A DNA stretch of 64,000 nt from Chamaelirium japonicum. Its lineage: Eukaryota; Streptophyta; Magnoliopsida; Liliales; Melanthiaceae. The DNA is taken from NCBI GenBank assembly GCA_947650365.1, contig OX393557.1:3480237-3544236 (forward strand). Reading direction: 5' to 3'. This document shows positions 129 to 61,101 of this stretch, in pieces (positions within the stretch are counted from its first letter, which is position 1; the number at the start of each line of letters is the position of its first letter). Position numbers and translations under genes: made by a program. Under the pieces are notes generated by a model. That model was not told the DNA's origin. It searched no databases and saw only the letters and a program-made list of their open reading frames with translations.

Positions 129-528
129 GAGGAATGGGATGCTGCCTATCAAAGCAGCGTTTTTGCTGCTTTGAGACATTGTTTGACCATCCTAGAAGTT
201 TTGGAATTTGATGAAATTTGGTGAGGGTGTTGTCCAGGGTAAGATGATCATCCTCACAAATTTTCATCAAATTCCAAAACTTCTAAGAGGGTCAAATGGT
301 CGAAGCAAAATGCTGCAGATTTTAACGGCGACTGCAGACGACTGATTTTGCTTCGACCATTTGAACCCCCTAGAAGTTTTGGAATTTGATGAAAATTTGT
401 GAGGATGATCATCTTACCCTAGACAACACCCTCACCAAATTTCATCAAATTCCAAAACTTCTAGGATGGTCAAACAATGTCTCAAAGCAGCAAAAAATGC
501 TGCTTTCATAGGCAGCATCCCATTCCTC
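129..528. mobile_element. Fold-back MITE-like element, family A, copy 1
   Basis: A 400 bp near-perfect palindrome. The left end begins GAGGAATGGGATGCTGCC and the right end is its reverse complement. Each end carries a small hairpin with stem CAAAGCAGC/GCTGCTTTG (one mismatch on the right). The arms contain GATGATCATCC, and a short asymmetric centre at about 305-345 includes ATTTTAACGG. There is no coding capacity. TA tracts lie on both sides, so any TA target duplication is masked. A second copy of the same length is at 29943-30342. The core is shared with family E near 55 kb although the termini differ. It resembles non-autonomous DNA transposons that live in (TA)n, such as rice Micron, but the transposase superfamily cannot be told from the sequence. 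Confidence 0.8.
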
Positions 529-602
529 TATATATATATATATATATATATATATATATATATATATATATATATATATATATATATATATATATATATA
601 TA
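529..602. repeat. (TA)n microsatellite
   Basis: 37 TA units join fold-back A1 to fold-back B1 with no other sequence between them. Confidence 0.97.
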
Positions 603-752
603 GGAGCATGCTATATTGCGGCATGCGGTACGTGCGGCACTACACCGCAGTCGTCTGATGCACGCGTTGCGTGCATGCGATGCATGCAACGGTGCATCAG
701 ACGGCTACTATGCGGTGCCGCACTTACCGCATGCTGCATTATAGCATGCCCC
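603..752. mobile_element. Short fold-back MITE-like element, family B, copy 1
   Basis: A 150 bp inverted repeat bounded by TA on both sides. The left end GGAGCATGCTATA pairs with the right end TATAGCATGCCCC, and the pairing continues through GCATGCGGTA and the GTGCGGCAC block. The middle is an alternating GCATGC/ATGCAT-rich segment around CGTCTGATGCA. A related element with a similar centre but different ends is at 59981-60114. No coding potential. Confidence 0.72.
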
Positions 753-981
753 TATATATATATATATATATATATATATATATATATATATATATATATA
801 TATATATATATATATATATATATATATATATATATATATATATATATATATATATATATATATATATATATATATATATATATATATATATATATATATA
901 TATATATATATATATATATATATATATATATATATATATATATATATATATATATATATATATATATATATATATATATAT
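753..981. repeat. (TA)n microsatellite, about 114 units
   Basis: A pure TA run linking fold-backs B1 and C, one of the longest tracts in the window. Reading frames through it give only Tyr-Ile repeats. Confidence 0.97.
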
Positions 982-1620
982 GGGGACGGGGAGCCTGGAC
1001 CTCAGGTGCAGCGTCTACACTGCACCTGAGCCCGGATGCATGACATCTGTCCCAGCCGGCCGAAATCCCGACCGCATACAGCCCCGTCCGCCACCATAAT
1101 TTCGGCCAAATTATCAGCCGTCCGATCGATCGAATCGAACGAACGGCATTCGCCTGAGCATCGCTGTTACTGTGGCGGCCACAGTAACAGCCCGGGTGAA
1201 TCCCGTCCGTTCGATTCAATCGATCGGATGGCTGAAGGGATTCTCGTAATTACTGTAGCGGCTACAGTAATCGCGAAATTTTTTTCAACCGACCGATTCA
1301 ATCGATCAGACGGTTGAAATCATTCTCGCGATTACTGTAGCCGCTACGGTAATCGCGAATTTTTTTTCAACCGCCCGATCGATTGAATCTAACGGACGGG
1401 ATTCACCCGGGCTGTTACTATGGCCGCCACAGTAACAACGAGGCTCAGGCGAATGCCGTCCGTTCGATTCGATCGATCGGACGGCTGATAATTTGGCCGA
1501 AATTATGGTGGCGGACGGGGCTGTATGCGGTCGGGATTTCGGCCGGCTGGGACAGATGTCATGCATCCGGGCTCAGGTGCAGCGTAGACGCTGCACCTGA
1601 GGTCCAGGCTCCCCGTCCCC
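982..1620. mobile_element. Large fold-back element, family C, with hairpins inside its arms
   Basis: A 639 bp palindrome starting GGGGACGGGGAGCCTGG and ending with its reverse complement, flanked by (TA)n. Each end has a perfect small hairpin (CTCAGGTGCAG/CTGCACCTGAG on the left, a 13 bp stem on the right). The arms contain further self-complementary segments of the form TTACTGTGGC/GCCACAGTAA and ATTACTGTAG/CTACAGTAAT at about 1162-1190, 1247-1277, 1325-1358 and 1405-1435. The whole is therefore a palindrome of palindromes. The terminal GGTGCAGCG hairpin is shared with family E. Short open frames here are palindrome artefacts. Confidence 0.78.
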
Positions 1621-1826
1621 TATATATATATATATATATATATATATATATATATATATATATATATATATATATATATATATATATATATATATATATA
1701 TATATATATATATATATATATATATATATATATATATATATATATATATATATATATATATATATATATATATATATATATATATAGAGAGAGAGAGAGA
1801 GAGAGAGAGGGAGAGAGAGAGAGAGA
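1621..1826. repeat. Compound (TA)n(GA)n microsatellite
   Basis: TA repeat at 1621-1786 passes directly into GA repeat at 1787-1826, on the right of fold-back C. Confidence 0.97.
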
Positions 1827-2245
1827 CCGGTGGGCATAATGGACAAGTGCAGTCCGGTAGCAAGTGTAGTCCCCATTCTCTTTTTTTTGGACGACATGGC
1901 AGACAACGGTTAGGCCGTAAGCAAGTTTAGGGAATCAATCTAGTAAAAATGCTCTTATAGCGAAACTATGGATCATCTGTTATCTAATGTCAGAGAACAT
2001 GTTTATCCACTTTTAATATGGGTGGACAAATCCCACTTCCCGGTTGGGCCCATTTATGGCGAACCGACCAACCCAAATTTGTTAGAAAGGGCCAGATTAA
2101 TTGTCAACCGATGGCTCATCCACCGCTATCAAAATAATAATGAGGGCAAATTTTTAAAACCTCCCGGGAACTAAACCCCTCCTCATTTGTATGTTGGTCC
2201 ATCAACTTTATTTTATAAACAATCATTTAAACCCTGAGCAATACT
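1827..2245. other. No recognisable gene or element
   Basis: About 420 bp between the compound microsatellite and the old LTR. I see no coding exon, terminal repeat or motif that I can name. A 68-residue open frame at 1968-2174 matches nothing I recognise. Confidence 0.5.
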
Positions 2246-58940: not shown

Positions 58941-59967
58941 GAGGTCTGACTGATTTTCTTACTTAGGATTGTTTTATCTCTTTTTTCTAACAATCACTAT
59001 TATAATTTTGTTTTGTTTCTATTTTATTTTGCGAGTTATCGTAAGATGAAGAATGTTGTCATTGCTAGAAATTGAATCGAATGCAGAGAAGTTGAGTTGA
59101 AATATATATCCAAAACCTTTGATTTCCTTGCACAGTTGAATTGCTCGTATCTGTATTAATATATTGAGATGTTATAAATTTAAAATTGAAAAAGATTGAG
59201 GTGAGAGATATGGAGGGGGGGACTTTACATGTAGACTAGATAAGGGAAAAAAAGGAAATAAAATAAATATTGTTGATTTGTACTAACATACTAAGCCGGA
59301 GAGAGAGGAAAAAAAATAAATACCATAATGTTGGAGATTTGATCATAATATGATTTTTCTCTATTTATTTGTGATTTGAAGGTTGACTACACACTGTGTG
59401 AACACTATGTAATTCATAATCTATGCTCGATGCTTTTGCAAATGTAATGTTCGTGCCTATCGGCACTATAACAGCCATCAATTACCTAGAGAGGGGGATC
59501 AGTTCTCAAACGAGCATATCTCCTCTTTCACACCCTCCGATCACATCAGAGAGAGAGAAAGACCGACATCAATTCCCTAACTATCCTGTCTCCCGGTATA
59601 AAACATAGTTGCTCTCGGATTGACATTTAGGATTAAGTCACTGGAATGCTATTTCTTTTCAAATTCTGTATGATGTATTTGAGATGGTTTTTTTTTTTTA
59701 TTGTATCGATGTGTTATAATGTGATATCCAAGGTATTGCTTTATTGACCATATACTCTATTATTCTGAGGAAATGATCTTATACACTAATCCTAGGTCTC
59801 CCCTCAAAAAATATTGTTATCACCTTTAAAATATTGTTCTCTCCCTCAAATTATTGTCGCCACTCTCAAAATATTTTTTTGCCACCTTTGAAAAAGTGCC
59901 ACCTTCCTCAAAATTTTGTTCTCTCCCTCAAAATCTTTTGCATGCCGACAGGCACGGGCATTACTAG
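58941..59967. other. About 1 kb without a recognisable gene
   Basis: AT-rich. A short region at 59806-59940 repeats CTCAAAATATT/CTCTCCCTCAAA phrases. No coding or RNA gene seen. Confidence 0.5.
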
Positions 59968-59980
59968 TATATATATATAT

Positions 59981-60114
59981 GGGAATTCCTTAGGCACGGT
60001 CTTGCGGTCCATGCGGTCCACACCCGCAGCCGTCCGATGCAGTGCACCGCACCGCGTCGCGTGCATCGGATGGCTGTGGATGCGGACCGCATGGACCGCA
60101 CCTACGCATGCCCC
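59981..60114. mobile_element. Short fold-back MITE-like element, family B relative
   Basis: 134 bp. A short TA run (59968-59980) lies to the left and a long TA tract to the right. The arms GTGCGGTCCATGCGGTCC-like are inverted about a centre containing CCGTCCGATGCA. The right end CGCATGCCCC resembles family B copy 1, whereas the left end GGGAATTCC differs. Confidence 0.65.
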
Positions 60115-60362
60115 TATATATATATATATATATATATATATATATATATATATATATATATATATATATATATATATATATATATATATATATATATATA
60201 TATATATATATATATATATATATATATATATATATATATATATATATATATATATATATATATATATATATATATATATATATATATATATATATATATA
60301 TATATATATATATATATATATATATATATATATATATATATATATATATATATATATATATA
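60115..60362. repeat. (TA)n microsatellite, 124 units
   Basis: The longest TA run in the window, joining the family B relative to fold-back F. Confidence 0.97.
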
Positions 60363-60747
60363 GGGCTGGGTTCCTATGACATGTCATAGGGAGTACCCTA
60401 TGACATATGGTGAATTACTAATGCTAGAATGTTTAGAATGTGCTGAATTTTTTTGTGAGTGATCACCTTACCTTAGATAGAATGTCCACAAAAAATCAAG
60501 GCATTCTAAAAGTTTTTGGGGCATCAAATGCTAGAAGCTTTATCGGCCATCCATTTTAACCGTTAAATTGAAAATCATATTTGATGCCTCTAGAAGTTTT
60601 AGAATGAGTCGAATTTTTGTGGGGGTCCTATCTAAGATAGGGTGATCATCCTTGTAAAAATTCAAAACATTCTAAATATTATAGGGTTACTAACTCACCA
60701 TATGTCATAGGGTACTTCCTATGACATGTCATAGGAACTCATTTCCC
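60363..60747. mobile_element. Fold-back MITE-like element, family F
   Basis: 385 bp between (TA)n tracts. Left end GGGCTGGGTTCCTATGACAT, right end ATGTCATAGGAACTCATTTCCC. Both ends contain the perfect palindrome CCTATGACATGTCATAGG. The arms carry GTGATCA(C/T)C motifs and the centre reads GGCCATCC then AACCGTTAAAT. Arms outside the terminal palindromes are imperfect. Confidence 0.75.
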
Positions 60748-60887
60748 ATATATATATATATATATATATATATATATATATATATATATATATATATATA
60801 TATATATATATATATATATATATATATATATATATATATATATATATATATATATATAGAGAGAGAGAGAGAGAGAGAGAGAGAGAG
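60748..60887. repeat. Compound (TA)n(GA)n microsatellite
   Basis: TA repeat to 60858, then GA repeat, between fold-back F and half-element I. Confidence 0.97.
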
Positions 60888-61101
60888 GGTTGTTACAGTG
60901 AGCTGTGGGCTGCCGGGGGGGAAAGTGAGCTGCGGGTATTTTGACCCCCCAAGAAGTTATGGAATTTGATGAAATTTGGTGAGGTTGTTGCCTAGGATAA
61001 AATGATCATCGTCACCAATTTTCATCAAATTCCAAAACTTCTAGGGGGGTCAAATGGTCGAAGCAATTTCTGCCGTCCGTAGTCACCGTTAAAATTGCTC
61101 G
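60888..61101. mobile_element. Half of a fold-back element, family I (family A/E core)
   Basis: Starts GGGTTGTTACAGTGAGCTG after GA repeat. It contains GAATTTGATGAAATTTGGTG, GATGATCATCG-like and CAAATTCCAAAACTTC blocks as in families A and E, reaches the centre GCCGTCCG then CACCGTTAAAATT, and then stops. The right arm is missing and unrelated sequence follows. Confidence 0.65.

Follow-up and report, generated by a model that had tools for sequence, protein, structure and literature searches.

Fold-back elements at TA tracts in Chamaelirium japonicum include similar cores with different ends

Fold-back elements in the window

The stretch analysed here, hereafter the window, is 64,000 nt of Chamaelirium japonicum DNA (contig OX393557.1, positions 3,480,237 to 3,544,236), and all counts and tests refer to this single window. 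It contains a set of fold-back elements that lie in tracts of the dinucleotide TA and that include similar cores with different ends. Comparison of the dinucleotide-masked window with itself yielded 15 fold-backs. In seven of these, a TA, GA or TC tract lies no more than 20 bp from each end, whereas 1000 random placements gave 0.01 such fold-backs on average and one at most. E1 and E2 form one merged row in this census, and Br fails the 20-bp limit by 3 bp on its left side. The remaining eight fold-backs are Br, the H core, I, J, two palindromes of 26-30 bp, and two fold-backs at 52697-53385 (689 bp) and 32228-32632 (405 bp), which are probably of another kind because their ends lack TA tracts.

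Ten complete fold-back elements stand at TA tracts (A1, B1, C, G/H, A2, D, E1, E2, Br and F). The original prediction had named about a dozen; G and H turned out to be one element, I has TA on its left side only, and J is a half core. Dinucleotide flanks were found on both sides of all ten elements, at A2 and E2 across GA/TC runs. The elements are short and have terminal inverted repeats (TIRs), except for G/H, whose ends differ and in which no TIR was found. They are arranged in the arrays A1-B1-C, D-E1-E2 and Br-F plus two singletons, with no element nested in another fold-back, and matching of the elements revealed four similar segments in each of A1, A2, E1 and E2. The features are listed below in their order along the window.

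96..128, TA tract, left side of A1
129..528, forward strand, fold-back A1 (400 bp), arms 160-311 and 345-496 (97% complementary), core of four similar segments, subterminal hairpin at both ends
529..602, TA tract, spacer between A1 and B1
603..752, forward strand, fold-back B1 (150 bp)
753..981, TA tract, spacer between B1 and C
982..1620, forward strand, fold-back C (639 bp), end class that of E, no interior match to A or E found
1621..1786, TA tract, right side of C, then GA run
15947..16112, TA tract, left side of G/H
16113..16339, forward strand, left half of G/H (originally G), GGGAAAGGG end with 12-bp hairpin
16340..26257, reverse strand (as judged from a primer-binding-site-like sequence beside the inner edge of a long terminal repeat, LTR), LTR retrotransposon within G/H
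26263..26663, forward strand, right half of G/H (originally H), core akin to those of F and A/E, end on the other strand GGGCTGGGATCC
26664..26739, TA tract, right side of G/H, then GA run
29868..29904, TA tract, left side of A2, then GA run reaching A2
29945..30341, forward strand, fold-back A2, 97% identical to A1
30367..30463, TA tract, right side of A2, beyond a CT run
30464-30780, fold-back I, TA on left side only
53907..53990, TA tract, left side of D
53991..54801, forward strand, element D (811 bp), TIRs of about 100 bp, internal tandem repeat of 126 bp, subterminal hairpin absent
54802..55039, TA tract, spacer between D and E1
55040..55431, forward strand, fold-back E1 (392 bp), A-like core, inverted, with C-like ends
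55432..55579, TA tract, spacer between E1 and E2, then GA run
55614..56012, forward strand, fold-back E2, 91% identical to E1 across 386 bp
56043..56128, TA tract, right side of E2, beyond a TC run
59968..59980, short TA tract, left side of Br
59981..60114, forward strand, fold-back Br (134 bp), related to B1, with a similar right end
60115..60362, TA tract, spacer between Br and F
60363..60747, forward strand, fold-back F (385 bp), core akin to that of G/H, more distantly to A/E
60748..60858, TA tract, right side of F, then GA run
60940..61095, forward strand, half core J, 86-88% identical to the A and E cores, right end not recognised, no second flank

The internal tandem repeat of D is GC-rich and has 3.1 copies at 54128-54520. 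The motif CCGTCCG has 11 of its 12 window copies within elements (seven in C and one each in D, E2, Br and J). The window also has two tandem repeats of two copies each, one of 132 bp at 41418-41681 and one of 207 bp at 56675-57084.

Ends and cores in A, C and E

The core arms of A and E are 83-95% identical in 16 arm-to-arm comparisons, with the E core inverted relative to that of A. The identity of their ends is 45-70% over 40-49 gap-free columns, or 53-69% with gaps counted. In all of the 16 pairings, which are mutually non-independent, the ends diverge more than the core arms (Fisher p 5e-4 to 1e-9, gap columns dropped), and the predicted combination of common core arms with different outer ends was thus confirmed for A and E. 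Comparison of E with C showed the opposite distribution: the ends are 67-78% identical (shuffle z 7.6-10), and the matches are confined to them, the interiors giving no match at an E-value cut of 1e-3. The E right ends are closer to C (73-76%) than to A (45-51%) by a clear margin, and E1-left is closer to C (76-78%) than to A (67-70%) by a small one. These results support the conclusion that ends and cores do not strictly co-segregate within the A, C and E group.

Homogenisation of the arms within copies was considered and not supported. In a tree of the left (L) and right (R) arms, A1L/A2L, A1R/A2R and E1R/E2R group with bootstrap values of 90, 70 and 85, respectively, and E1L and E2L do not group; the arms therefore group by position, not by copy, suggesting that they have not simply been homogenised.

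Termini and subterminal hairpins

End statistics cover the 20 ends of the ten complete elements, with I and J outside the set. The predicted GG or GGG start at the TA boundary was found at 14 and 12 of the 20 ends, respectively; it does not hold for the four A ends, which read GAGGAATGGG with a GAGG start (those of A2 beside GA/TC runs), or for the right end of D, which reads CGA. At the right end of E2 the GGGG lies within the TC run. F and G/H have two terminal types in common, GGGCTGGGNTCC and GGGAAA.G.GTT.CCTA, which occur at opposite ends (0/200 shuffles each). The right end of Br resembles both B1 ends (GGGGCATGC or GGAGCATGC), and its left end does not. TGATCA, said to mark the arms of several elements including G, has 16 of its 32 window copies within elements (7.6% of the window, I and J included), but none in the G half of G/H. 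Among the matches listed for element letters in published texts there was only a ten-letter string, which occurs in unrelated contexts and was attributed to chance.

A stem of at least nine paired bases, with one mismatch tolerated, was found at 13 of the 20 ends (four of A, four of E, two of C, two of F and the G end), starting 13-24 bases from the cut end. The background rate was 1.3% of 4442 overlapping 60-mers and, within the repeat-rich elements, 15.8% of 292. The subterminal hairpin predicted for several elements is borne out at these 13 ends. No such hairpin was found at either end of B1, Br or D or at the H end. DNA folding of 10 of the 20 ends gave z values of -2.7 to -5.4 for A1 (both ends), E1 (both ends), C-left, F-left and G, and of -1.0 to +1.0 for H, B1-left and D-left.

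Alignment of the ten A, C and E ends showed that 92.2% of the stem cells pair (0/500 shuffles as high), that 12 stem cells are changed on both sides (1/500) and that the covariation score is 0.293 (0/500); slid versions of the stem pair in only 28-45%. Three points argue against a kept stem pairing. The pairs changed on both sides number four, which is not unusual (144/500); the further pair types number seven, which is low, 493/500 shuffles reaching or exceeding it; and such shuffles may be beaten by related sequences without any structure. The stem changes, across which the pairing is kept, collapse to about three events (A versus C/E, C versus E, and one in E2-left). This pattern of paired changes would be expected both under selection on pairing and under copying of one stem strand off the other.

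An end layout of three copies, X-X'-X, is not claimed. Only F supported it convincingly, with 0/2000 shuffles at both ends; support was weak (0.005-0.045) for A, E-right and G and not significant (0.19-0.39) for C and E2-left, and E1-left was outside the test, its stem having a mismatch. RNA families gave no match at gathering scores.

Attachment of TA tracts to elements

The window has 15 TA tracts of at least 12 bp, 1806 bp in total, and all of them adjoin an element end, some with a GA/TC run in between. Distances from tract to element were then tested with I and J in the element set and a limit of 60 bp from the element end. TA tracts lay within this limit in 16 of 16 cases at a length of at least 10 bp and in 16 of 18 at a length of at least 8 bp, and other tracts of at least 10 bp in 3 of 13 (GA) and 2 of 18 (TC). 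No TA tract of at least 10 bp in the window therefore lacks an element, which fits tract growth after insertion in this one window and bears on whether TA tracts are insertion targets or products. In the available text of PMC5907723, empty sites of maize TAFTA (TAFT) measure 6-8 bp and tract growth is tied to elements.

GA on the left and TC on the right, as at A2 and E2, is the pattern published for pineapple elements. GA runs also follow directly on the outer TA tracts of C, G/H and F (1786-1826, 26739-26785 and 60858-60887, respectively). The last of these runs into J, and the GA runs beyond C and G/H may accordingly mark lost elements.

One element split by an LTR retrotransposon

G and H are two halves of a single element, since a 9.9-kb LTR retrotransposon fills the gap between them. 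The LTR copies, aligned at 16336-18669 and 23924-26258, are 96.6% identical, and there is a 5-bp duplication, ACAAC. Two choices of LTR boundary are compatible with this duplication, of which the one that starts with TGTTGG and ends with CTAACA was chosen. Without the insertion G/H is 628 bp long, and its core matches F (73.6% over 159 positions) and, with weaker scores, A1 (71.6% over 116) and E1 (74.7% over 83). Unlike the other elements, G/H has two different ends and so no full-length fold-back. A second copy of the retrotransposon, of about 10 kb, lies at 35316-45361 in the opposite orientation and is 94% identical to the copy at 16340-26257.

Proposed mechanism and alternatives

We consider it likely that the elements belong to the SaTar/Micron/MuTAnT kind of non-autonomous fold-back transposons associated with TA, mobilised in a Mutator-like manner, and that the end piece of A, C and E (about 45-50 bp) has a history apart from that of the core. 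One or more Mutator-like transposases most likely move the elements in trans, and insertion would take place at short TA sites. The flanking TA tracts, and at some ends GA/TC tracts, would lengthen by slippage after insertion, and a next element entering the grown tract would produce non-nested arrays like those observed. The ends of A, C, E, F and the left of G/H appear to present a terminus with a G run and a subterminal hairpin of about 10 bp. In the likeliest route of exchange, an element would acquire its end by copying that of a neighbour in excision-gap repair or stalled-fork restart, possibly aided by the inverted arms and by homology between the TA sequences that surround each element.

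Several results count against this scheme. The ends of A and C are themselves 58-64% identical (shuffle z 3.0-6.0), as fast divergence of a single end lineage might leave them, and the A, C and E ends align throughout as one class, suggesting that ends were replaced by others of their class or diverged fast within it. The end hairpin that C and E had been predicted to share, with different interiors, is thus a feature of divergent members of a class that also includes A. A clean gene-conversion tract in the E left end was rejected, A-like and C-like positions alternating there, and the independent mismatches between end and core in the window number perhaps two to three. Among ten scanned reading frames, out of 81 of at least 110 residues and none from within elements, there was no Mutator-like domain; five matched retroelement families, copia-type and non-LTR-type frames being present in the window, and five matched nothing. 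Outside TA the window showed no complete element copy, nor any with a 9-10 bp duplication. The likeness of the A and C ends, however, lies mostly in the hairpin, since A/C pairs were absent from the best 24 of 136 pairs when only the first 30 bases were compared. End exchange among A, C and E is a modest, testable lead.

An explanation whose chance falls only a little short of even is that the window holds several unrelated families with transposases of their own, which have only the preference for TA sites in common. B1/Br and D lack the subterminal hairpin, their interiors gave no match to A, C, E, F or G/H at the E-value cut of 1e-3, and none of their end 30-mers paired with another group above z 2.0 among the best 24 of the 136 pairs. 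The prediction that all fold-backs belong to one transposition system is not supported. The termini common to members within A/C/E and within F/GH, however, are not expected of families that are unrelated throughout.

It is rather unlikely, although worth serious consideration, that no exchange took place and that A, C and E share an old end whose hairpin evolves far faster than the core, for example by lineage-specific adaptation to a transposase. This would agree with the alignment of the ends from GGGATGCTG through the hairpin and with the inner stem letters, GCAGC being kept in nine and GCTGC in seven of the ten ends. It requires, however, the same new end on both A arms (A1L and A1R ends 94% identical) together with a slow core, and the E ends are on average closer to C than to A despite the A-like core of E. 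Of the recombining end and core modules proposed originally, the non-co-segregation in A, C and E and the terminal types common to F and G/H stand, but fast divergence could take the place of recombination.

That long TA microsatellites came first and were merely targeted by the elements is improbable, for although empty TA sites have been published for rice indica and Medicago, those of Medicago MuTAnT average 9 repeats against 11.7-15 on filled flanks (available text of PMC4486113), and the window has no empty tract among its 16.

A highly speculative extension of the end-exchange scheme is that the transposase reads the end as a shape, a G-run terminus plus a 10-bp subterminal hairpin free to vary in its letters provided that it pairs, so that end cassettes could be swapped between unrelated cores in TA arrays; the stem changes make hairpin-shape reading by a Mutator-like transposase testable. 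Should the movement of ends between cores be real, TA arrays would be workshops that assemble new mini-transposon families, and families of miniature inverted-repeat transposable elements (MITEs) defined by their interior would misgroup elements.

Comparison with known systems

The kind of element is already known, namely microsatellite-associated non-autonomous Mutator-like elements (SaTar, Micron, MuTAnT and Ac-mMITE), and the less usual part is the occurrence of similar cores with different ends, together with an end hairpin whose shape persists through changes of its letters. The original statement that nothing was known beyond Micron is out of date, as SaTar, MuTAnT, TAFT and Ac-mMITE have been published, although its narrower point, the case of similar cores with different ends, was not encountered in the topical literature search described below. 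The following comparisons draw on partial texts of the published accounts.

SaTar elements are described from guayule, rice, sorghum and citrus, rice Micron being rSaTar2 (PMC5907723). Like the elements here they are short, have TIRs and TA or other dinucleotide flanks, and form non-nested mixed arrays; 9-10 bp duplications and autonomous relatives are reported for SaTar, and the available part of that account contained no description of end exchange between cores. MuTAnT of Medicago truncatula (PMC4486113) is likewise a TA-flanked fold-back. It has four similar segments, as in A1, and GGGG/CCCC termini, which the elements here match in part, with GGG at 12 of 20 ends and GAGG at the A ends; it is a single family with an autonomous relative, and by eye its TIR GGGGTTTGCTAGAACA agrees with the elements here no further than the G run. 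Ac-mMITE-1 and -2 of pineapple (PMC8449440) also show TA flanks, GA/TC at the ends and clusters, and are two families with common distal TIR segments; their lengths are 510-570 and 210-270 bp, compared with, for instance, 400 bp for A1, 392 bp for E1 and 150 bp for B1.

As to modular structure, fold-back TIRs of TA-associated elements have been described as 'built up from modules'. Micron-like MITEs are handled as a group in a survey of 207 plant genomes, at least in the portions available. Comparable excerpts propose a crossover between two elements for a nematode Tm1 foldback with an odd end, and template switching in TIR elements for animal Pack-TIRs. A topical literature search, mostly shallow and missing the original Micron and TAFT papers, found no published account of a similar core with different ends in TA-associated elements, which is weak evidence of absence. 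Maize Mu elements have termini in common and unrelated interiors. The elements described here additionally show the reverse arrangement, similar cores with different ends.

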